DNA of 64,000 nucleotides from assembly GCF_009650095.1 (NCBI RefSeq), contig NZ_CP045915.1, forward strand, positions 2,604,001 through 2,668,000, given 5' to 3'. Positions 13,781 through 50,256 of this stretch are shown piece after piece. Below the pieces are notes generated by a model. It saw only the letters and a list, made by a program, of their open reading frames with translations, was not told the origin of the DNA and made no database searches. The number at the start of each line of letters is the position of its first letter. The stretch's first letter is position 1. The translations under genes were made by a program, and so were the position numbers. The stretch is from Gracilibacillus salitolerans. GTDB lineage: Bacteria; Bacillota; Bacilli; Bacillales; Amphibacillaceae.

Positions 13781-14455
13781 CTATTCCTCTAACCAATTGT
13801 AATATAATGATTTATCATAAGGATGTTCTTTCTTAACTGACGTATTTTGCTGATGCGTGTGAAATGATTTGCTAGATTGTTGAGCCTGCTGGGAAGATTT
13901 GATTCCCTTCTTTTTCCACTCAATTAAGATACGGTCTATATATTTAAAATTAATTTTCCCCATCAATACTGCTTCTCTTAATGCAGTATAAATAAGCGAA
14001 ATATCGTGATTATCTTCATCTAGCCAATTATTGATCATTTCGATTTCGAAAGGTGATAATGGCCTGCCAAATTCACGTTCGAATTTTTGGAAAACTTCTC
14101 CAACCTTATTATCAACCTTTTCCACCTTTTCATCGATGGAATATAATTTTTGCCATAGTGGATCTAATGAGTAAGATTCTTTTATCATGTGGTTATCTTC
14201 CTGATCCTCTTCTATAGACAAAAAATCTTTTTGTATTAGTTGTCGTAATAAGTTAGTACAAATTTCATTTGAGATTGTTAAATGTTCAGCGATTTCTTCC
14301 GGTGTTGGAAAATTGTTACCCTTTCTTTGTGCCGTATAAATTTGCAGAATAATAGCTAATTGCGCCTCATTCAGGCCCAACGATGCGAATTTTTCAATTA
14401 ATAACGCCGGAAAATTTATTTGATCATGTAAAATGTATTGCATGCTTTGTTTCAT
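13781..14455 (-). CDS. dnaD: Primosomal protein DnaD
   Basis: A 224-residue replication-initiation and restart protein. The N-terminal winged-helix domain covers about 15-100 (LNEAQLAIILQIY, PTPEEIAEHL). The C-terminal DnaB/DnaD helical domain at about 125-195 has the FEREFGRPLSPFEIEMINNWLDE signature and ends at the IEWKKKGI segment. The tail 195-224 is Gln/Ser/His-rich and ends YNWLEE. AGGTGGG lies ahead of the ATG. It is first in the dnaD-nth pair and is separated from asnS by the R1 repeat locus A. Confidence 0.95.
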   Translation of the reverse strand: MKQSMQYILHDQINFPALLIEKFASLGLNEAQLAIILQIYTAQRKGNNFPTPEEIAEHLTISNEICTNLLRQLIQKDFLSIEEDQEDNHMIKESYSLDPLWQKLYSIDEKVEKVDNKVGEVFQKFEREFGRPLSPFEIEMINNWLDEDNHDISLIYTALREAVLMGKINFKYIDRILIEWKKKGIKSSQQAQQSSKSFHTHQQNTSVKKEHPYDKSLYYNWLEE

Positions 14456-14540
14456 CGTTTATAACCCACCTTCAACCAATATGATAACACTATATTAGAA
14501 AAAATACCCGTTCCCGAACCGCCCAATTATTTCATAATAG

Positions 14541-15004
14541 ATAAAAACTGAGACACAGTGGAAATTTTTCCATCCTGATTTTTGATAAGTGGTGAGATAC
14601 GCTCCGGCAGAATACTTCGCTTTCCGTGGGCACGGCCTCAGCCTCCTCAAAAAGCCAAGTGCGCTTTTCTGCGGGGTCTTCAGCTCGCGCTGTTCCCCAG
14701 GAGTCTGCGTATTCTGCCTCCGCTGGTTCTAATGTTCTGATTGTTGAAAGAAGAAAATCTTCGGATATATAATCAAGGGACTTCTTCTCACTATTCCAAA
14801 ACACTAGTCAAAGCTGCGGAAAAATACGACACTCCTGGGGAACAGCGCGAGCCGAAGATCCACTTTGCAAAGTGATTTTCTTTGCAAAGTGAGCTGAGGC
14901 CGTGCCCCCGGAAAGGGAGTATTTTTCCGCAGCGATGGTTATGCACTCATCAAGACAAGAATGGAAGAAAGCAAATCCATGTACACGGTACTTCGCAGTT
15001 TATG
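14541..15004. repeat. R1 composite palindromic repeat, locus A
   Basis: Two ~122-base arms in inverted orientation, 14601-14724 (subtype I, outer end GCTCCGGCAGAATAC) and 14813-14933 (subtype II, outer end GCTGCGGAAAAATAC), about 88 bases apart. The right boundary 14959-15003 reads GAATGGAAGAAAGCAAATCC, then about 15 bases, then TTCGCAGTTTATG. The left boundary (from 14541) is a degenerate inverted copy. Arm 2 has subtype II ends but a subtype I-like interior with ACTTTGCAAAGT. It lies between the asnS terminator and the dnaD start. The short open frames inside are not credible genes. Confidence 0.85.
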
Positions 15005-15052
15005 TTTTATGTGCTGATTTTTGTGCTTCATGTTTTCTTTTTAAAATAGATA

Positions 15053-15090: not shown

Positions 15091-16383
15091 TTATGGATAT
15101 AAACGGTTTAATAATCTTGGAAACGGTATTGTTTCTCTAACGTGCTCCACACCGCTAATCCAAGCAACAGTTCGTTCTAATCCTAAACCGAAACCAGCAT
15201 GCGGCACACTACCGTATTTACGTAAATCAAGGTACCATTGATATGCGTCTCCTGATAGGTTATGCTCTTGATAACGTTGCTCCATTAACGATAGATCATC
15301 AATTCTCGCAGAGCCACCAATGATTTCACCATAACCTTCTGGCGCAATTAAATCAGCACATTGCACAACATCTTCACGCTTTGGATCAGGTTTCATATAG
15401 AAGGCTTTTATATCTTTAGGATAATGCGTAATAAACACTGGTTGATCAAAACTTTCAGCAATTGCAGTTTCATGAGGAGCACCGAAATCCTCTCCCCATT
15501 CAATATCAGTAAATCCCTTTTCCTTTAACGTTTCAATTGCTTTATCATACGTGATACGTGGAAATGGTGCTTTGACTTTTTCTAGAGCATCTAGATTTCG
15601 TTCCAATATTTTAAGCTCTAACGCACAATTTTCCAACACGGTTTCAATAATAAATTGTACATAATTTTCCTGTATTTCTAAGCTTTCTTCATGTGTTACA
15701 AAAGCCATTTCTGGTTCAATCATCCAAAATTCAATTAAGTGTCTTCTTGTTTTTGATTTCTCGGCTCTGAACGTTGGACCAAATGAGAATACACGTCCTA
15801 GTGCCATAGCTGCTGCTTCCATATATAATTGGCCACTTTGAGACAAATAAGCCTCTTCATCAAAATATTGAGTATGGAATAACTCAGTCGTTCCTTCAGC
15901 AGCTGAACCAGTTAAAATTGGTGGATCAACTTTAACAAATCCTTCTTTTTGGAAAAATTGATACGTACCTTGGATAATTTGGTTTCTGATTTTCATAATG
16001 GCATGTTGCTTTTTGGATCGTAACCATAAGTGACGATGATCCATTAAAAATTCCGTCCCGTGTTCTTTCGGTGTAATCGGATAATCTGTTGCTTCATGGA
16101 TGACTTCGATTTCCTTCACCTGCATTTCATAGCCAAACGGAGATCGAGTATCCTCGACAATCGTTCCAGTTACATACAAAGATGACTCCTGTGTGATCGA
16201 CTTCGCTAATTGAAATGTTTCTTCTGAAACTTCTGCTTTTACAACAACGCCTTGGATGAAGCCAGTACCATCACGTAATTGTAAAAAGGCGATTTTACCA
16301 CTGGACCGTTTGTTGGCAAGCCATACACCTATCGAAACCTCTTGATTGAGATAATTTGCTACCTGATTAATCGTTGTTTTCAT
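15091..16383 (-). CDS. asnS: Asparaginyl-tRNA synthetase
   Basis: A 430-residue class IIb aminoacyl-tRNA synthetase. The N-terminal OB-fold anticodon-binding domain covers about 12-100. The catalytic core includes [11 protein letters not shown], the motif 2 region [22 protein letters not shown] at about 205-230 and motif 3 [12 protein letters not shown] near 405-416. The length matches Bacillus AsnS (430). GGAGGAAA precedes the ATG at 16383. It follows aspB by 26 bases, the conserved aspB-asnS order. No T-box leader is seen in the short gap before it. Confidence 0.97.
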
Positions 16384-19296: not shown

Positions 19297-21939
19297 TCAT
19301 AGCCATTTACTTACACGATTTAGCAAGTTTTGCATGTTTTCATAATGAATAGGAATTTCTGGTATGGATTTAATAAATGTCTTACCATAACGTTTTGTCA
19401 TAATTCTTTCATCGAAAACAAATATCATGCCATGATCTGTGTCTTTCCGTATCAACCTGCCAAATCCTTGTTTGAATTGTAAAACCGCTTGTGGTAATGC
19501 TAATTCCATAAACGGATTCATTCCTTGTAATTTAAAATAATCTGCTTTTTTAATATAGACAGGATCTTGTGGTGACTGAAAGGGTAGCTTCACAATAATT
19601 AAACAGGACAAATCATTTCCTGGAATATCAATTCCTTGCCAATAAGCATTCGTTCCTAAAAGGATCGATTTGTCAAAAGCTTGAAATTGTTTAATTAAGC
19701 GATTCCTGCTACCAGTCGAGACACCTTGTCCAATAATTATATAATCCATTAACAAATCTGTTTCTTTTAAAATAAAGTAGCTTTTACGCAACATATCATA
19801 TGAAGTAAACAGTACTAACATTCTGCCTTTCGTTTTTTCCGCTATTGAAATGATCGCTTCGTTAATAGCAAAAATAAAATCGTCATTATTAGGATATTGA
19901 ATGGCAGGCAGATCATTAGGTATCATAAGTTGTACATTATTTTGATAATCAAAATGATGTTCTACCATATACTCTCTAGAATGCTTTGGATCAAGTCCTA
20001 ACCTTTCTTTTATATAATGGAAAGATTGATTCATGGTTAATGTAGCACTGATTAAGATAATCGATTGTTTTTTTCTAAATAAATATTCCTGTAAGGTATC
20101 CTTAACTGAAAATGGCTCATGGTGAATAAATACCGCATTCTCTGCACCTTGCTGATCAATCTCCAACCATGTAACTGCTTCCTGTTTTTCTTCTATCAAA
20201 AGTTGACGAAGCAGTTCTTGTATTCGGAAGATTTGATTCTTTTCATCTGCTGAATCATCTTGGAACAATTGAGCTAACTCTTTTATCACCATGATTGTTC
20301 GATATATGCTATCGACAAGTTCCTCTGGTTTGTCATGATTCCAGACAGTTTTCAAGCGCCCAACATCTGTTACAGCTTTCTGATTTTTATTATGCTCTTT
20401 CACATAATGATACAATTGTCGGAATAATATATCTGTTTCATATTTAACCGTATCTAAATGTTGCTGAAAGGTAATACTTTTGCCATAGCTCTTCTCTAAT
20501 TGTTGATAAAAGTGAGTTAATTCGAAATAGCTTAAAGAATCTCCAAGATAACTCGTTGCCATTTGTTCTAGTTGATGGGCTTCATCAATAATCAACCTTT
20601 GATACTCTGGAAGTATGGATTTTTCTGCTAACATGTCTATTGCTAAAAGTGAATGATTAGTAACAATTATCGAAGCATCAGTTGCTTTATTTAGCATTCT
20701 TTGATAAAAACAATAGTCCTTCCAAATTTCGCTGGCTGTTCCATTATTTACTACAATTTGATAAAAAATAGGGTGTTTTTCAACAGGAAACTGTATTTCA
20801 TCTAAATCCCCTGTCGTTGTCTCTGTTAGCCATACTATAATCATTGCTTTTAATAATGTATCTTGGTAAGACTGATAATTAGAATCGTGAAAAAATTGCT
20901 CGAAATTTTGCAGGCTTAAATAATGTGTTTTCCCTTTAATAATCGCCGTTCGAACGGGTAAATCAAGTTTTGCTAAATCTTGATCGATTAATTGTGACTG
21001 TAAGTTCGTATTTGTTGTACTGATCACTACTTTATTATGATGATTCAATGCTTCATAAACAGCTGGAATTAAATATCCAATAGTTTTCCCAAGACCTGTT
21101 TCTGCTTCGATTAGAGCATGTTCATTCATCCGAAAATGATCATAAATTTTTTCGCTTATGAAGACTTGTGCGTTTCGTTTTTCATACCGGGCATAAACTT
21201 GGGCCAGTCTGCCGTTATCACCATACATTTCATCTAGATATTTAGAAAAGTCTTGGGGAATTCTCGTTTCTACATCTCTTGTTTCTTTTTGTTTCTTCAA
21301 AGAGAAACCTCTAAACTCTTCTATATCTGTACGATTGGTCATATGGTCTAATGATTCACACAGCTTAGCAAAATCCGTTCGTAATGGTCTTGATATGGAT
21401 AATACTTGATTTATGACCTTCTCCGGTAGGTATTGTAATTTGTTTATCAGCATAATTAGCAAATCAGCGGTTACCAAGGCGTCAGATATTGCTCTATGTG
21501 GATTTTCATGACTGATCATTAAATATTCAGCTAATTCATTTAATTTGTAGCTGGGTGCTTTTGGCAAAAATATTCTTGCTAGTTCGACAGTATCGACCAC
21601 ATAAGGTTGGATTTTTGTTTCTCCTACACGTTCAAGTTCTTCATTTAAAAAAGTTAAATCGAAGGGGACGTTGTGTGCAACTAAAATAGCTTTATCCAAT
21701 AAATCTTTAAACTCGGGTACGACATTATCGAATACGGGTTGTGCTTCCACATCTTCATCTGTAATAGATGTTAATTGTGAAATAAAGGATGGAATAGGGC
21801 GTTCTGGATTGATTAATTGATTATATTGTTTTGTTATTTGGTTGTTTTCGATTACTACTAAGGCTATTTCAATAATTCGGTCACCTTTTGATGCTAACTG
21901 TCCAGTAGTTTCCACATCTATTACAACAAATTTTTGCAA
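19297..21939 (-). CDS. dinG: DinG-type protein: DnaQ-like exonuclease plus XPD-like helicase
   Basis: An 880-residue protein. The N-terminal DEDDh exonuclease domain (DVETTG 8-13, HNVPFDLTF near 92, HRAISDA near 153) is joined to a superfamily 2 helicase with Walker A ETGLGKT near 280, DEAH near 455 and ATLTMNQS, plus the C-terminal motif QGFGRLIR near 828. This architecture is the Firmicutes DinG, slightly shorter than the B. subtilis protein. The cysteines for an Fe-S cluster seen in E. coli DinG are not obvious. The start is a TTG at 21939 with GGGGATG upstream. It precedes the MBL-fold gene and follows R1 locus B. Confidence 0.92.
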   Translation of the reverse strand: MQKFVVIDVETTGQLASKGDRIIEIALVVIENNQITKQYNQLINPERPIPSFISQLTSITDEDVEAQPVFDNVVPEFKDLLDKAILVAHNVPFDLTFLNEELERVGETKIQPYVVDTVELARIFLPKAPSYKLNELAEYLMISHENPHRAISDALVTADLLIMLINKLQYLPEKVINQVLSISRPLRTDFAKLCESLDHMTNRTDIEEFRGFSLKKQKETRDVETRIPQDFSKYLDEMYGDNGRLAQVYARYEKRNAQVFISEKIYDHFRMNEHALIEAETGLGKTIGYLIPAVYEALNHHNKVVISTTNTNLQSQLIDQDLAKLDLPVRTAIIKGKTHYLSLQNFEQFFHDSNYQSYQDTLLKAMIIVWLTETTTGDLDEIQFPVEKHPIFYQIVVNNGTASEIWKDYCFYQRMLNKATDASIIVTNHSLLAIDMLAEKSILPEYQRLIIDEAHQLEQMATSYLGDSLSYFELTHFYQQLEKSYGKSITFQQHLDTVKYETDILFRQLYHYVKEHNKNQKAVTDVGRLKTVWNHDKPEELVDSIYRTIMVIKELAQLFQDDSADEKNQIFRIQELLRQLLIEEKQEAVTWLEIDQQGAENAVFIHHEPFSVKDTLQEYLFRKKQSIILISATLTMNQSFHYIKERLGLDPKHSREYMVEHHFDYQNNVQLMIPNDLPAIQYPNNDDFIFAINEAIISIAEKTKGRMLVLFTSYDMLRKSYFILKETDLLMDYIIIGQGVSTGSRNRLIKQFQAFDKSILLGTNAYWQGIDIPGNDLSCLIIVKLPFQSPQDPVYIKKADYFKLQGMNPFMELALPQAVLQFKQGFGRLIRKDTDHGMIFVFDERIMTKRYGKTFIKSIPEIPIHYENMQNLLNRVSKWL

Positions 21940-22049
21940 AGGATCATCCCCGATACTTGATATTACATTTCAATTTATAGTTCGCAACTTCTGACGCATA
22001 AATATATACAATCAAACAAATACGCTCAGTCATCGTTCACAATAGATAA

Positions 22050-22527
22050 CTACTGTGAACCAATGAAGTTTTTTCTTGATGTAGCTTTCTTCCATTCCGT
22101 TTATAGTTGAGTGCTAACTCGACGCTGCGGAAAAAATACTCGCTTTCCGTGGGGAACGCTTCAGCCTCCTCGGAAGCCAAGACCGCTTCCTGCGGGGTCT
22201 TCAGACTGTTCCTTTCCCACAGGAGTCTCGCATTTTTCCCGCAGCTTAGATTTGTGTTCTAATTAAATGACAGGAAATCCAAGGAATATAGTTCCCTAAG
22301 TTCTATTCAACGATAATCAGAACACTAAAATTAGCGTAGGCAGAATGCGGAGACTCCTGTGGGACAGTGAGAGCTGAAGATCCACTTTGCAAAGCGATTT
22401 TCTTTGCAAAGTTAGCTGAAGCCGAGCCCACGGAAAGCGCAGTATTCTGCCGAAGCGGTGACATAACACCCTCTACAGAAAGAATGGAAGAAAGCAAATC
22501 TAAAACGTATAACTTCGCAGTTTATGG
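22050..22527. repeat. R1 composite palindromic repeat, locus B
   Basis: Arms 22124-22245 (subtype II, GCTGCGGAAAAAATACTCGC end) and 22333-22456 (subtype I-like ends, inverted), about 87 bases apart. The right boundary is 22481-22527 (GAATGGAAGAAAGCAAATC ... TTCGCAGTTTATG); the left boundary keeps CTTTCTTCCATTC at about 22085. The order of subtypes is the reverse of loci A and C. The inner arm carries two ACTTTGCAAAG-type boxes as in locus A. It lies between the panD terminator and the dinG start. Confidence 0.85.
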
Positions 22528-22558
22528 ATACTGTTCATCATTAGTTGCAGTTTTTAAA

Positions 22559-22597: not shown

Positions 22598-22981
22598 TTA
22601 AAGGCTTGATAATGGTGGTTCTTGTTCTAATATTTCTTTAATATTGTTGTGCTCATCCATTACAGCCACTTTTGGTTTAAATTCTACAAGCTCTTCGTCT
22701 GATATGATGCCGTAAGAAACGACTATAATAATATCATCAGGCTGAACAAGGCGAGCAGCTGCACCATTTAAACAAAATACCTTACTGCCTCTTTCACCAG
22801 CAATCACATACGTTTCTAAGCGTGCTCCATTATTGTTGTTTACAATTTGTACTTTTTCATGCGGTAAAATACCTACTTTATCTAAAATATCTTCATCAAT
22901 GGTAATACTGCCTACATAATTTAAATTTGCTTCTGTTACACGTGCGCGATGAATTTTCGATTTCATCATGGTACGTAACAT
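22598..22981 (-). CDS. panD: Aspartate 1-decarboxylase
   Basis: A 127-residue pyruvoyl enzyme making beta-alanine for pantothenate. The self-cleavage site is G24-S25 in NYVGSITID, which gives the pyruvoyl group. Conserved residues around K9 and the NGAAARL segment are present. AGGGGGA precedes the ATG at 22981. It is the last gene of panB-panC-panD with an 11-base gap from panC. Full length for the family. Confidence 0.97.
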
Positions 22982-30394: not shown

Positions 30395-31108
30395 TTACGT
30401 TGATTCTCCTTTGTATTTTGCCCATGCAACGTAAGATAAACTCAGGAAAATAAAGCCGAATACTATAAATATCAACCACTTTGTATATTGGGCATTTGCA
30501 TTATTCAATGTGTCAATATTAAGCTTAGATATTTGTATAAACGTTTCTTCTAATTCGATTTCATCATACGATTGATGATTATTCGTTAATACACTCAATG
30601 ACTGCTGATAATCTTGGTATTGTTCATCATTCAAATGCAGTTTAACAACCGGGGATATAGCTTCCACATAATATATAACTTCTTCCATATCAGATTGACT
30701 CACTTGCTCCTGATCTAATAGTCTATTCATCTTTCTTTCTAATTCATACTTCCAAGTTGTCCATAATGGAGCATTGTCTGATATCATTGCATCCCATAAA
30801 ATAATGGTTTGTTGGGCTGCCAGGGATTTTTCTGAATCTGTTGTCTGCTCATCAAGCAGTATACGGAGACAATTATCAAGGTATTCTCTCATAATCGGCT
30901 CGTATGTACCCTTTTCTTCTGCAACTCTCTGTAAAATGGTCGTTTGATTATTTTCAATGATTTGGACTGCTACTTGATAACGCTGCTCTTGTACAAGCCG
31001 TTCAAAGGTATACATATAATGATCATTACTTTGAGCAGAAAGATCGAATGGATGAAAAGCTTGTATTAATATTAAGATGAAAAAAAATGAAAATATATTA
31101 TTTCGCAC
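30395..31108 (-). CDS. ypjB: Sporulation protein YpjB
   Basis: A 237-residue protein with a signal peptide or N-terminal anchor (about 1-25), a helical extracytoplasmic domain (about 30-205) and a C-terminal membrane helix (about 210-230) followed by a short basic tail. It matches the Spore_YpjB family in layout and neighbourhood (ypjA upstream). GTG at 31108 after AAGGGG is favoured over the ATG at 31126, which precedes the ribosome binding site. The precise role in sporulation is unknown. Confidence 0.75.
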   Translation of the reverse strand: MRNNIFSFFFILILIQAFHPFDLSAQSNDHYMYTFERLVQEQRYQVAVQIIENNQTTILQRVAEEKGTYEPIMREYLDNCLRILLDEQTTDSEKSLAAQQTIILWDAMISDNAPLWTTWKYELERKMNRLLDQEQVSQSDMEEVIYYVEAISPVVKLHLNDEQYQDYQQSLSVLTNNHQSYDEIELEETFIQISKLNIDTLNNANAQYTKWLIFIVFGFIFLSLSYVAWAKYKGEST

Positions 31109-31292
31109 AACTACCCCTTCTTCCATCTTTCTTTTTTAAAATGTATGAAAGATCGGTCGTAGTTATGCATTTGAATCAGTACGAATCAATAGCCTCGCGA
31201 AATCGTGTTTTATTGTTCACTAATATGCAAGAGAAATAATTCTATTCACTCTGAACCGAAGAAAAGCTTATCTAAAAATGATCCGTAAAATG

Positions 31293-31768
31293 CATAAACT
31301 GCGAAGTAACTGTCATGTGGATTTGCTTTCTTCCATTCTGCTCTAGGGAGTACTAGCATACCGCTCCGGCAGAATACTTCGCTTTCCGTGGGCACGGCGT
31401 CAGCCTCCTCAAAAAGCAAAGTGCGCTTTTCTGCGGGGTCTTCAGCTCGTGCTGTCCCCACAGGAGTCTGCGTATTCAGCCTACGCTAAAAGTGATTCTC
31501 TAATTATTGTAAGAATAAAACCTACGGAATTATATTCTTAGGATCTCCTCTCACTTAATCAGTAAGCTACTCTAAGCTGCGGAAAAAAATACGAGACTCC
31601 TGTGGGAAAAGAACAGTCTGAAGACCCCCACAGGAAGCGGTTTTGGCTTCCGAGGAGGCTGAAGCGTTCCCCTCGGAAAGCGAGTATTTTTTCCGCAGCG
31701 GCGAATTAGCACTCAACAATAATCAGAATGGAAGAGAGCAAATCTGAATTTTAATTAGTTCGCAGTTT
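31293..31768. repeat. R1 composite palindromic repeat, locus C
   Basis: The best preserved copy. Left boundary 31293-31340 (CATAAACTGCGAAGTA ... GATTTGCTTTCTTCCATTC) is mirrored by the right boundary 31724-31768 (GAATGGAAGAGAGCAAATC ... GTTCGCAGTTTTTATC). Arms are 31363-31487 (subtype I) and 31576-31699 (subtype II, inverted), 88 bases apart. It lies between ypjB and ypjA. The rest of the 31109-31818 gap shows no gene and no clear terminator for ypjA. Confidence 0.88.
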
Positions 31769-31818
31769 TTATCTACTATTAATCAATGTGGTGATGACGA
31801 CCGGGGTGGGTTTTCATC

Positions 31819-32400
31819 TTATAATTGTCTAATATTTTTCTTTACCGATATCTGATAAACGGTAAAGATGGTTATAATCGATAACCAAAAAGTAAAATAC
31901 CCGATATGTTGATGGTAATCAGTTAAGCTACCATAAACAGGCATCATGCCATACACATAATCGATCAGTTCATTATGTAATAACCATATGGCGGCAATAG
32001 CTAAATGGCCTAATTCAATCTTATAAAGTGGTGCATACAAAAATGCTTGAATCGCCATTGCGCCATGAGAAGCGATTAACATATATCCCTGCCAACTTAA
32101 ATCTCCATTAAAGTATAGTGTTAAAAGGTTCATTACAACAGCCCAGGTCCCATATTTCACAAGTGAAGTAAATGCTAACGCTTCGATAATTGGTACACGC
32201 TTCCCTACTAACAGAAAAAATAAAAACAATGTGAAAAACAGACTGGCTGTTGGACTGTCAGGTACAAAGGCAAGAAACTGAACAGGTGTATTACTCAGTT
32301 GGTTGCCATACCAGAAGTATCCATAAATAGTACCCAGTAGATTCACTATAAATAAAAGAGCAATAAAATATGGGTGGAACAAAAATTTTTGCAGTATCAT
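31819..32400 (-). CDS. ypjA: YpjA membrane protein (DUF1405)
   Basis: A 193-residue polytopic membrane protein with five to six helices, with motifs such as YGYFWYGNQL and FVPDSPTASLFFT at the N-terminal half typical of DUF1405. The function is unknown; it is consistently next to qcrABC in Bacillaceae. GAGGAGAAA precedes the ATG at 32400. It is separated from qcrC by the terminator at 32494-32528, so it probably has its own transcript. Confidence 0.85.
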   Translation of the reverse strand: MILQKFLFHPYFIALLFIVNLLGTIYGYFWYGNQLSNTPVQFLAFVPDSPTASLFFTLFLFFLLVGKRVPIIEALAFTSLVKYGTWAVVMNLLTLYFNGDLSWQGYMLIASHGAMAIQAFLYAPLYKIELGHLAIAAIWLLHNELIDYVYGMMPVYGSLTDYHQHIGYFTFWLSIITIFTVYQISVKKNIRQL

Positions 32401-35858: not shown

Positions 35859-37130
35859 TTAAAAGAGAGTATCATTATTTTGATCTTTCAACCGTTCGGC
35901 ATATTGTTGAATATCGAAATCTGATGGTTCTAAAACCATATACTCTTCCAATACTTCTAAGGCTATACTGATCCTCCCTTCTTCTACTAGAAAATATCCA
36001 TAATCTTTTAAGAAGTCAGTATCTTGCTTTATCTTATTGTATGCATTCTGGTACGCATTTAATGCCTGTTTAAACTCTTCTTCCTCATTATAAGCTTTGG
36101 CAAGCTCCCAGTAGAAAATACCGTCTAATGGGTCAATATCAACCTCTTCCGTTAATAAGTGAATAATTTCAGAATTATTATTTTGTTTTTTATATGTCTC
36201 CACTAAGAATAAAAGTGCTTCCTGATATTCGTTATCTAGCGCTATTGCTTTTTTCACTAAATCAAATGCTTGTTCACTTTCTCCTGTTTTAAGTGTGATC
36301 CTGCCCGCAGTAAACCACATTTCTTTATTAAACGGATCCATCTCTACCCCTTGATTGGCCGTTTGGTAAGCCTCCTCAATCATGCCTTCTTCTTCATATG
36401 CTTTAGAAAGATACAAATAAACAGAAGGATATTCTAACTCTTCTTCTAATAACTTTTCCCATGCTTGAATCGCTATTTCATATCGTTCGGACTTATAAGC
36501 TAAAAAACCGTACCGAAAGAGCGTTTCAGGATCTCCGGTATTTAATGTTTGATAATGATCGAGGGATGCTTCAAATTCACCATTTAGAGCATATGCTTCT
36601 GCTAATCGACTAGCAATGTTAACCCCAGCAAATTCTTCTGTTGTTTGCCTTAGTTTTTCAAAATATATAATCGATTTATGGTATTCTCCGGAAGAAAACA
36701 ATAATTCACCTAGTGCAAAATCAATTATCGCTTCTTCAGGGGCTATATTTTTCGCTATCAGTAATTTTCTCTCTGCTACTTCAAATAATCCTTGCGCTTG
36801 GTATAAATCGGCAAGCTGTACTAGTGCCTGAAGATAATTTTCATCTCCATCTTCTATTTCATTCAAAAGTTCAATCGCTGTTTCGTCTTTGTTATCGTCA
36901 ATCATTATATCTGCTAATAATAATTTCGCTTCGCTATTATTCGGTTCTGTAACTAGAATATCTTTTAAAAGAACTTCTGCCAAATCATGATTTCCTAATT
37001 CTACAAAAATTTGTGTAATTTCTAGTTTTGTATCTATATCAGCTGAAATTGCCGTTTCATTTAGCAATGATAAGGCTTCTTTAACTTCTCCAGCATGGAT
37101 CATTTCAATTGCTTGTTCAATTGTATTCAA
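35859..37130 (-). CDS. ypiA: Tetratricopeptide repeat protein YpiA
   Basis: A 423-residue, very acidic protein built from about eleven TPR-like helical pairs over its whole length (recurring A-L-Y/F-x-G-x-Y/F-A-I patterns). The B. subtilis homologue YpiA begins at the equivalent of NTIEQAI. That points to the TTG at 37130, which has AAAGG nine bases upstream; an in-frame TTG three codons earlier is too close to that site. It probably acts as a protein-protein scaffold. First gene of ypiA-ypiB-ypiF. Confidence 0.88.
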   Translation of the reverse strand: MNTIEQAIEMIHAGEVKEALSLLNETAISADIDTKLEITQIFVELGNHDLAEVLLKDILVTEPNNSEAKLLLADIMIDDNKDETAIELLNEIEDGDENYLQALVQLADLYQAQGLFEVAERKLLIAKNIAPEEAIIDFALGELLFSSGEYHKSIIYFEKLRQTTEEFAGVNIASRLAEAYALNGEFEASLDHYQTLNTGDPETLFRYGFLAYKSERYEIAIQAWEKLLEEELEYPSVYLYLSKAYEEEGMIEEAYQTANQGVEMDPFNKEMWFTAGRITLKTGESEQAFDLVKKAIALDNEYQEALLFLVETYKKQNNNSEIIHLLTEEVDIDPLDGIFYWELAKAYNEEEEFKQALNAYQNAYNKIKQDTDFLKDYGYFLVEEGRISIALEVLEEYMVLEPSDFDIQQYAERLKDQNNDTLF

Positions 37131-37280
37131 TGACTTCAACCTTTCTTTATAACGTATCCTTCTAACTACTCATCTTATCGGATAACAACCAATCGAGCAA
37201 CTAAGACAATTTATAAGAACAAAAAAATGCAAATAACCATCTCATTTCCATTCTACACTACTCTGGGAAAATAAATTCAA

Positions 37281-37447
37281 ATTAGATAAAAACTACGAAC
37301 TAGTGAATATTTTTAGAGTAAGACTTTCCTCCGTTCCTTCCATAAAGAGTACTGGAATACGTCTGAAGACCTCGCATAGACGCACTTAGCACTCAACCCC
37401 AAAAGAATGGAAGAGAGCAAACCCACTTGACAGTTTCGTAGCTTATA
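37281..37447. repeat. R1 repeat relic, locus D
   Basis: The left end (AGATAAAAACTACGAACTAG, about 37285-37304) and right end (GAATGGAAGAGAGCAAACCC ... TTTCGTAGCTTAT, 37404-37447) match the R1 boundaries in inverted orientation. The arms are reduced to scraps such as GTCTGAAGAC. It lies between the ypiA start and the aroA terminator; the rest of this 379-base gap shows nothing else. Confidence 0.65.
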
Positions 37448-37468
37448 GATTTTGTTTATTACCTAAAA

Positions 37469-37509: not shown

Positions 37510-38802
37510 TTAGTTGGATAGTAAGGAATGTAAATGTTCGAAAAAGGTAGGATAGGAGATCGAGATACATTCATCATCATGTAGTTCTACTTTTTCATCT
37601 GTTAAAAGAGATGCCACTGCGATCATCATCCCAATCCTGTGATCACCATACGATTCTGTTACACCACCATGAAGCTGTGTATTTCCCTCAATAATCATAC
37701 CATCCTTCGTACCAGAAATAGTCGCACCCAATCTTGATAATGTATTAACCACTGATTCAATGCGATCGGTTTCTTTAAAACGCAATTCTTCAGCATCTTT
37801 TATTACGGTTTGACCGGCTGCTTGTGTTGCCAGTAAAGCAATTATTGGAATTTCATCGATAATTCGTGGGATAATATCTCCTTCTATCACTGTAGCCTTT
37901 GGCTGTGAAGCTTGCACCGTGATATCACCGATTGGTTCCCCACCAATCGTTCTTTTTTCAATGACTTGAATGGAAACATTCATCAATTTTAATACATCAA
38001 TGATACCAGTTCGTGTCGGGTTAAGACCAACATTTTCAATGGTGATTTGACTTCCTTCGGTAATGGCTGCAGCGACCAGGAAAAATGCAGCAGATGAAAT
38101 ATCTCCAGGTACTTCGATATCACAGCCAGTTAATTTCTTATTACCTGTTATTTTTACTTTTGTACCTTCCACATCAATATCAGCACCAAACGCTTTTAGC
38201 ATGTTCTCCGTGTGATCTCGCGTTTTTGTCACTTCTTCTACGGTCGTTACCCCATCTGTTAAGAGACCAGCTAACAATACACCTGATTTTACTTGAGCAC
38301 TCTTGACAGGTGGCTTGAAATCAATTGGTGATAAATGACCACCTCTTATAGCAATCGGAAGTAAGCGGCCATTTTCTCGGCCGTCAATTTTTGCACCCAT
38401 TTTGCGTAATGGATTAGCAATACGATCCATCGGTCGCTTCGATAGCGAATCATCACCATACAACGCAAAGTGAAATGGCAAACCTGCTAAAATACCCATT
38501 AATAGCCGAGCGGTTGTTCCAGAGTTCCCCAAGTCAATCGGTTGAACCGGTTCTTTTAGTCCGTTAACTCCAGCAGATTCAATTAGCACAGTATTTTCTT
38601 CACGGTGGATAGAAACTCCCATTGCTTGAAAAGCTCCGATAGTTGATAAACAGTCCTCACCAGCTAAAAAGTTAGTAATCTTGGTTTTTCCTTCAGCTAA
38701 GGAACCAAACATTACCGCTCGATGAGAAATAGATTTATCTCCAGGAACAGTAATGTTACCAGTTAGCGTCTTTCTTTCAAATGCTAATACTTTTTGTGAC
38801 AA
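37510..38802 (-). CDS. aroA: 3-phosphoshikimate 1-carboxyvinyltransferase (EPSP synthase)
   Basis: A 430-residue enzyme of the shikimate pathway (called aroE in B. subtilis). PGDKSISHRAVM near 19-30 and LGNSGTTARLLMGIL near 91-105 are substrate-binding regions; SKRPMDR (about 122), SAQVKSG (about 168), DEIPIIALLA (about 316) and GDHRIGMM (about 389) follow. The RPM and GNSGTT variants are those seen in the Bacillus class. The start is TTG at 38802 after GGAGAGGAA. Last gene of the operon, 13 bases after tyrA. Confidence 0.96.
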   Translation of the reverse strand: MSQKVLAFERKTLTGNITVPGDKSISHRAVMFGSLAEGKTKITNFLAGEDCLSTIGAFQAMGVSIHREENTVLIESAGVNGLKEPVQPIDLGNSGTTARLLMGILAGLPFHFALYGDDSLSKRPMDRIANPLRKMGAKIDGRENGRLLPIAIRGGHLSPIDFKPPVKSAQVKSGVLLAGLLTDGVTTVEEVTKTRDHTENMLKAFGADIDVEGTKVKITGNKKLTGCDIEVPGDISSAAFFLVAAAITEGSQITIENVGLNPTRTGIIDVLKLMNVSIQVIEKRTIGGEPIGDITVQASQPKATVIEGDIIPRIIDEIPIIALLATQAAGQTVIKDAEELRFKETDRIESVVNTLSRLGATISGTKDGMIIEGNTQLHGGVTESYGDHRIGMMIAVASLLTDEKVELHDDECISISYPTFFEHLHSLLSN

Positions 38803-49763: not shown

Positions 49764-50256
49764 ATGATCCCCTCCCGATCTATTCGACCTCATCATTCCT
49801 TCGAATCTTTGACAATTCTATTCTATGATGTTGTCCTATTAATTTATGCTAAATATTCGCATAATAAATAAACTTTCCTGATATACCAGTCAGATAGATT
49901 TTCCAGTTCTAACTTCAACATATGATGTAAAGAACTAGTTTATTCACATAAATTAGAAAAGCTTTCATAGAGGAGGATCTTTTTAAGAATGCCATTTTGT
50001 ATCACAACTGTCTAATGACCTTATTAGAAAGCAAATCCCAGCCACAGAGAGCCTTTATTTGAGTTTTTGTAGAAAAGATGACAATTAACTCTCGCTCCTC
50101 CCTACAAAGCCACACGCCTCCCGTACAGCTTATCTGAAACACAACAGATCCATACAAGCATTATTTCGTAGTTTATGAATTTTGTGCGTAATTTTCTTTA
50201 CTGTATTAGAAAAAAACTTACCCAAACTGGATAAGTTTTTACTAGTGGATGCAAAA
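49764..50256. other. Noncoding interval with probable R1 relic (locus E)
   Basis: About 490 bases without a credible gene. Around 50143-50179 the sequence CAGATCCATACAAGCATTAT followed by TTCGTAGTTTATG matches the R1 right boundary of locus A at most positions, and GAAAGCAAATCC occurs near 50027. No arms remain. The yphF terminator lies at 50213-50241. A SigE promoter for spoIVA is expected near the right-hand start but no good pair could be settled. Confidence 0.5.
50213..50241 (-). terminator. Terminator of yphF
   Basis: Stem AAAAACTTA (50213-50221) with TAAGTTTTT (50233-50241); T-run on the leftward side; 16 bases past the yphF stop. Confidence 0.75.

Follow-up and report, generated by a model that had tools for sequence, protein, structure and literature searches.

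What are the composite palindromes that lie between genes in this stretch of the Gracilibacillus salitolerans chromosome, and how did they come to be there? The window, which is the whole 64-kb stretch of DNA analysed here, covers positions 2604001-2668000 of a complete 5,088,110-bp genome. It harbors three such palindromes of ~490 bp each, which proved real by direct reading, a repeat search and a profile search. The initial annotation offered a choice between a nonautonomous mobile element and a large structured RNA. This framing is supported by ~100 genomic loci, compensatory change in 23 of 29 arm base pairs and a variable occupancy of sites. Its mobile half is the better supported one, the RNA half being backed indirectly by a G.U over A.C bias and by the likeness of the arms to an annotated sRNA family. 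We consider it fairly probable that the palindromes belong to a nonautonomous, intergenic, mobile repeat family in the style of REPIN and BOX elements, in which inverted ends (E1 and E2) frame two inverted ~120-bp hairpin arms and a spacer.

Build of the copies in the window

The elements are built in the order end E1, reversed arm, spacer, forward arm, end E2. The arms are ~120 bp long and inverted, and the spacer measures ~87-89 bp in the window copies, which bears out the two inverted arms of ~122 bases, ~88 apart, that had been described before. Examples from the repeat search are an inverted pair of 114 nt at 92% and a direct pair of 98 nt at 96%. Two arm types can be differentiated, A (GCTGCGGAAAA..) and B (CGCTTCGGCAGAATAC..). 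E1 and E2 have an inverted GCTTTCTTCCATTCTG-like stretch in common and diverge further out in the column profile; E2 reads ..TTCGYAGTAGATAMAAACTGCGAACTAGTGAAAATT.. and contains an inverted repeat, TTCGYAGT-8 bp-ACTGCGAA. The inverted boundary sequences of the initial annotation are present and correspond to E1, but E2 is not identical to E1.

Copy 1 (14534..15011, − strand, E2 left and E1 right; direct reading, repeat search and profile search) carries one arm near E2 at 14600..14724 (−, core forward on the − strand, genome match 2618600-2618724) and one near E1 at 14814..14935 (+, core forward on the + strand, genome match 2618823-2618934). It lies downstream of asnS (15091-16383, −) and is followed by a DnaD-domain protein gene (13781-14455, −). 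Copy 2 (22038..22534, −, E2 left and E1 right; reading and profile search) consists of an A-type arm at 22124..22247 (−, genome match 2626124-2626245) and a B-type arm at 22335..22458 (+, genome match 2626333-2626457), with panD (22598-22981, −) and a dinG-type gene (19297-21939, −) as neighbors. Copy 3 (31287..31777, +, E1 left and E2 right; reading and profile search) has its B-type arm near E1 at 31362..31487 (−, repeat search and arm alignment) and its A-type arm near E2 at 31576..31699 (+, arm search and arm alignment); the adjoining genes are found at 31819-32400 (−) and 30395-31126 (−). Copies 1 and 2 take on the same orientation and copy 3 the opposite one, being one of the copies oriented against the adjoining genes. 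All three full copies are thus found at the loci first reported, with slightly wider limits.

Close relatives of these copies occur elsewhere in the chromosome. Copy 2 is 96.7% identical over 486 bp to a copy at genome position 2546557, and copy 3 is 95.7% identical over 486 bp to one at 4701461. The window additionally holds a short derivative of 175 bp (37281..37455, −; end pattern and profile search) that has both ends and in which no arm was found, between an aroA-type gene (37510-38802, −) and a gene at 35859-37139 (−). A weak solo fragment of E1 at 50141..50184 (−; profile search, 19.6 bits, E about 2e-4) may be due to chance.

Copies across the genome and their position behind genes

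Arm and end searches across the genome (366 kb of own sequence) yielded 101 hit clusters, and the few further copies that would have spoken against the initial annotation did not come true. One element is counted twice, as it is split by an IS110-type remnant; 21 clusters consist of one hit each, and two of these score below 25 bits. Conversely, the best 40 of 73-144 candidates were scored in each copy search, and some copies were surely missed. About 100 is a fair count. The end motif TTTGCTTTCTTCCATTCTG, with up to three mismatches, has 98 hits in the genome versus four for a reversed control pattern and therefore recurs beyond chance. Both ends with a span of 150-900 bp are present in 65 clusters. 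The size classes comprise ~490-bp elements, one-arm forms and armless ~180-bp forms, the latter two of which look like deletion derivatives. None of the 101 clusters overlaps an ORF of at least 150 aa by more than 60 nt. The best pair of copies within the genome is 98.7% identical over 477 bp, and in some pairs the match at 90% or above is confined to the first ~340 bp or, where the partner lacks an arm, to the last ~300 bp.

The typical element carries no transposase, as had been noted from the window. One long 1.6-kb copy (genome 2062872-2064466) was considered as an autonomous element and rejected, because the IS110/IS116-type transposase remnant nested inside one of its arms does not represent a mover that shares the element's ends; insertion sequences that target REP palindromes have been reported (PMC1525189, in the part of the article available). 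No autonomous transposon with the same ends was seen among the element loci examined. The phage sequences searched contain no match to the element, and the plasmid sequences searched contain one, in a Radiobacillus record.

A simple ORF caller allowed orientation and flanking ORFs to be scored for 91 of the 101 clusters. At 77 of these 91 loci the gene on the E1 side points into the element with its 3′ end (14 do not follow this rule), and in tandem gene contexts 60 elements are same-sense versus 10 reversed. An intrinsic terminator reads toward E1 in 36 of 77 flanks, where mononucleotide shuffles lead to an expectation of 0.1; the same detector finds none in the other 41 E1 flanks, and the other three side/strand classes score 13/77, 8/79 and 6/79. 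Among element-free gene 3′ ends (90 nt behind each, 184 kb) terminators occur in 18 of 159, and a control matched for a gap of at least 90 nt gives 14 of 68 (Fisher p 0.0015 versus 36/77). A stricter terminator detector places the hairpin 24-43 nt from E1 in 29 of 38 cases. By eye, a terminator is also present at the short sites 3651987 in G008 and 4494673 in G016, two of the related genomes compared below. Outward terminators at E2 (8/79 versus 1.0 shuffled) and the motifs GGGTT or GGTTTT in 25 of 79 outward E2 flanks (versus 8 of 77 E1 flanks in each direction) are suggestive only of a terminator that belongs to the E2 end. A promoter reading of a TATAAAAT-like stretch outside E1 in the column profile was set aside as too weak.

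The orientation is mostly opposite between the two genome halves, so that the bias also follows the direction of replication. The lagging-strand tandem cases split 4 versus 3, and gene and fork effects are hard to part. Convergent contexts hold 10 elements with the fork and seven against it; because of this split, gene or terminator direction explains the orientation better than the fork, which is disfavored as the cause and not fully separated from gene direction.

The hairpin core of the arms and its reach

The arm itself had been described as an imperfect palindrome, and its hairpin fold is indeed borne out by strong covariation among arms from 26 genomes. In an alignment of 33 arms that was made without structure, 29 consensus pairs were obtained, 23 of which show two-sided compensatory change, the covariation that the earlier reading had left to a covariance model. 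Pairing cells amount to 94.5% versus 79.2 shuffled, and the covariation of 0.405 exceeds that of both the shuffled (0.154) and the slid (0.057-0.084) controls. Little or no variation is seen in ACTCC, GAAGA and parts of GGAAAGCG, which lie mostly outside the consensus pairs; the conservation thus exceeds base pairing.

The fold also differs between the strands. G.U cells outnumber A.C cells 54 to 10 in the alignment, 41 to 10 without the most variable pair and 15 to 7 when pair positions are counted, a count that leans toward G.U because G.U but not A.C pairs are allowed by the folding program, and in which cells are not independent events. Among 112 arms of the same genome the counts are 174 versus 40 after removal of duplicates, in an alignment that was fitted to the model and leans toward the structure. 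The same lean is found in both arm positions of the element (75/21 and 95/14). Such a strand preference suits a folded RNA, or a folded single-stranded DNA of one strand. Copies 2 and 3 were also folded as a whole, with z-scores of −14.4 and −12.4. Their minimum-energy fold is one long foldback in which the arms pair with each other and not two separate arms, and it replaces a clover-leaf fold that had been considered.

The core reaches far beyond the genus. A B-arm DNA query matched 39 of 61 genomes, that is 16 of 17 within the genus, 18 of 20 among other members of the family and five of 24 among other members of the order. An arm covariance model, applied to 200 class-level genomes at E ≤ 1e-4, matched 44 of them, spread over 22 of 94 genera. 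This is a lower bound under strict filters, and the 44 include three genomes (G000, G004 and G030) that supplied arms to the model. Genera with exact-pattern loci among the matches listed are Gracilibacillus, Aquibacillus, Halobacillus, Sediminibacillus, Sporosarcina, Planococcus, Psychrobacillus, Evansella, Lederbergia, Caldibacillus and Pullulanibacillus, together with at least three Staphylococcus species. All 24 chosen loci, three Staphylococcus loci among them, contain arms according to the model; they had been picked by the pattern or by the model itself. Two further loci stand apart in their build: in L194 (G011, 1298-1403) one arm of the element is a nearly perfect palindrome around GCTTTTCTGAGGAGGCTGAGG and draws spurious microRNA-family hits, and G110:C95:77708-78182 (L272) holds three tandem arm copies with a period of 189 bp.

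A scan of the window with Rfam at gathering cut-offs returned no family. The model of the small RNA tsr24 (RF02577), which was built by others, matches the arms with E 9e-6 at locus L202 and best scores of 38.6 and 45.9 bits against a cut-off of 50 bits. At E ≤ 0.001 it matches 20 of 37 genomes versus none of 14 control genomes, and none of the 37 passes the 50-bit gathering cut-off. Paired and unpaired columns are held in common, GAGACUCC..GGGA.CAG..GAAGA..GCU..CCC..GGAAAGCG. The difference is that tsr24 is a small RNA family of S. aureus, whereas the Gracilibacillus arm is a repeated module in composite elements. Sequence and model comparison suggest a kinship between the arms and tsr24, although the cut-off keeps the arms out of that family.

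The ends vary by lineage. Loci L199 (G015) and L203 (G010) have an outer sequence around ATAATATGGATTATG in common, and the arms of G004 and Staphylococcus lie near GGGACA-type or other inverted frames, both as judged by eye. The complete 3.0-Mb genome G086 has 15 counted arm matches, nine of which were examined (L457-L465). Seven copies match the reference copy over 276-290 bp at 95.4-99.7%, and L465 matches it in pieces at 90% or above. The G086 elements are one-armed and bounded by GAGGCTGGGACA..TGTCCCAGCCTC (or ..AACCTC). They harbor an internal intrinsic terminator, and several start within ~15 nt of stop codons by eye; target duplications were not seen by eye at these copies. As the frames differ by lineage, the arm would seem to be the conserved module, with the ends as the changeable part.

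These features also bear on an alternative in which the arms are selected as mRNA 3′ structures or small RNAs of the tsr24 kind, useful to the host, and their repetition is incidental. The strand-specific fold with its G.U bias in both arm positions, the kinship with tsr24 by an independent model and the G086 form with its own terminator close behind stop codons are in its favor, as is the persistence of slots across species described below. Yet in each pair the fold is kept at both positions, even though one of the arms runs antisense to the neighboring gene. Such a host-useful module is rather unlikely as the main explanation, also because the presence of the element at the same gene varies between species and at some slots the arms are replaced by a cassette in which no similarity to them is detectable.

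Possible turnover of orthologous slots and candidate movers

This variation was followed by comparing 184 kb of own sequence with three related genomes (G008, G014 and G016) that are 85-91% identical among themselves. All four genomes have the sites of copies 1 and 2 filled, with place and orientation unchanged but with different arm types and lengths; the copy 2 site in G016 holds a 196-bp form only. At window positions ~2634-2792, elements are present in G008 and G014, a fragment in G016 and none in the own genome. Fourteen further own sites in three relatives gave 42 comparisons, tallied by hand: ends or arms in 23, a dissimilar palindromic cassette in four, a gap of less than 150 bp in nine, a longer gap without hits in five and one not assignable. 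The filled slots often have an arrangement different from that of the own genome. Orthologous slots are therefore variably filled, which agrees with the presence/absence polymorphism foreseen by the initial annotation, here between species and not strains. At 577099 in G016 (L437, C11:249800-253800), a similar element lies beyond the matched flank, as if the neighborhood had been rearranged, and the slot was not assigned.

The cleanest short site is 2324751, between the ribulose-phosphate epimerase and thiamin pyrophosphokinase genes, which measures 582-585 bp in the own genome versus 40 and 39 bp in G008 and G014. The extra DNA runs past both E1 and E2 as defined, and a loss in G008 and G014 is possible as G016 holds an element there. 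The best case for the gain of an element is site 2546557, where no end or arm is present in G008, G014 or G016. The short gap at 4494673 in G016 keeps weak end remnants. Gain and loss are not separated between species, and the exact ends are not pinned.

At four slots (531639, 100087 and 577099 in G008, and 577099 in G014) the arms are replaced by the dissimilar cassette (GCGGACATTTGTTCCG.., also with AATGTCCGC motifs; the 'GCGGACAT' cassette), which in G014 also occupies the slot that corresponds to window copy 3. No match to the cassette motif was detected in the own-genome sequence examined. In two of the four it lies between E-like ends with weak scores (531639 in G008, 14.5 bits left and 4.2 right; 100087 in G008, 9.0 left and 10.1 right). 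Elements of G008, G014 and G016 have a third arm type (CACTCCGGCTGCCCA..TTTTTCGAGC..) in place of A or B arms, and site 2259889 in G014 holds another palindrome-rich filler with repeated GGGATA-type motifs. The two framed cassettes, together with the inverted repeat within E2, would fit ends that are degenerate sites of a site-specific recombinase, with the slots as places of cassette exchange. E1, however, lacks a matching outer half, the putative crossover stretches differ between E1 and E2, and homologous recombination explains the exchange equally well, which makes a recombinase target very improbable. Partial identity between copies is also seen in G003, where right-hand stretches of 168-397 bp match the reference copy. 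Taken together, the slots and the copies that are identical over a part only suggest that new insertions may occur alongside the overwriting of old slots.

Target duplications, for which the initial annotation had proposed a search, do not rise above chance: direct 8-mer repeats flank 10 of 62 elements versus 11.7 shuffled. As no enrichment is present, a classical cut-and-paste transposition is not supported. In their short length, inverted ends, many copies, intergenic position and want of coding capacity the elements resemble MITEs (as these are described in the available part of PMC10969869); the terminal inverted repeats are imperfect, E1 differing from E2, and the coding capacity and copy number agree. 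They differ from MITEs in that neither a target duplication nor, among the element loci examined, an autonomous partner was found.

For paired inverted hairpins the reference system is that of REPIN/BIME elements with RAYT (PMC8049555 and PMC2817692, in the parts available). The window elements share with it two inverted hairpin units, a foldable single strand, an extragenic position, ~100 copies and long vertical persistence. Their arms measure ~120 bp, whereas REPs are short and marked by a GTAG or CGTC tag beside a 20-40 bp palindrome (according to the available part of PMC3733652). They also have the additional inverted ends E1 and E2, a position tied to gene ends and terminators, a preferred orientation and a genome without Y1 transposase. 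Ordinary REPINs moved by a RAYT/IS200-type (Y1 HUH) transposase would account for the strand-specific fold and the place outside genes as well as for the missing target duplication and the vertical persistence, all of which belong to the REPIN pattern of PMC8049555 (part available). Y1_Tnp, however, has no matches in the own complete genome, in the single-contig genome G010, or in G003 and G014, all of which contain arm matches. RAYT was thus rejected as a universal resident mover and is refuted as a resident one here, so that its authorship is highly doubtful; a past RAYT that has since been lost is possible.

The position behind terminators brings a further candidate into view. Group IIC introns are a class that inserts behind terminators, and an RNA-mediated, SINE-like spread by the reverse transcriptase of such an intron, for example, would also fit the RNA-type G.U bias, the missing target duplication and the G086 form with its own terminator; the own genome has one match to RVT_1. 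This reverse transcriptase domain is present in 14 and absent from nine of 23 arm-bearing genomes, including the single-contig genome G010 and the relatives G014 and G016, which led to its rejection as a universal resident mover and leaves such a spread with little likelihood.

BOX elements are modular in build. Pneumococcal BOX, RUP and SPRITE repeats are interspersed, structured and slow-moving, likely affect co-transcribed genes and are almost entirely absent from other streptococci (PMC3049150, available in part). The likeness, drawn from that description only, lies in being interspersed and structured; the hosts are unrelated, and here the core of the arms extends over many Bacilli genera. 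The bcr1 element (named in PMC2267715, available in part), a small intergenic Bacillus repeat with mobile-element traits, is similar by the title description of its paper only and differs in being specific to the B. cereus group by that title. In a mainly open-access literature search no title among the matches listed dealt with this element family. Part of it may already be in print as Bhal-1, Sta-1 to Sta-4 and Efa-1, which are known here by description only (PMC2267715, same part).

The preferred reading thus remains that of a mobile repeat family: the ~100 copies, mostly behind genes, and a hairpin core that recurs in many Bacilli including Staphylococcus make the elements look like mobile genomic passengers. 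A single strand with an arm would fold into the hairpin, which a trans-acting factor would recognize. New copies would insert with E1 foremost a little way behind terminators, where the cost to the host is presumably least. Established copies would persist for long at the same slot as their interiors are rewritten through homologous recombination with other copies, and orthologous slots would consequently keep position and orientation yet differ in arm type or hold another cassette. In read-through transcripts the folded arms would form an additional 3′ structure. A wider proposal, which is tentative and on balance doubtful, is a Bacilli-wide superfamily of strand-specifically folding cores (tsr24-type arms) in lineage-specific frames. 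It would occupy long-lived oriented slots behind terminators, and its palindromic cargo (arm pair, other arm type or 'GCGGACAT' cassette) would be swapped by a dedicated process without a resident RAYT or reverse transcriptase.

Compared to the known kinds of repeats, the class-wide arm and the exchangeable slots are the unusual features. One covarying hairpin core extends from halophilic Bacillaceae to Planococcaceae and Staphylococcus, while the pneumococcal repeats are described as nearly missing from other streptococci (PMC3049150, in the part available). Slots that are fixed in place and orientation with differing interiors offer a natural system for watching repeat turnover. The absence of two obvious mobilizers makes the question of the mover directly testable, for which the near-identical one-armed elements of G086 are a good system. 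If the core is a mobile module, the annotation of the S. aureus sRNA tsr24 needs a second look; if it is host-useful, it would be a conserved 3′-end RNA structure that is undescribed in the literature searched.
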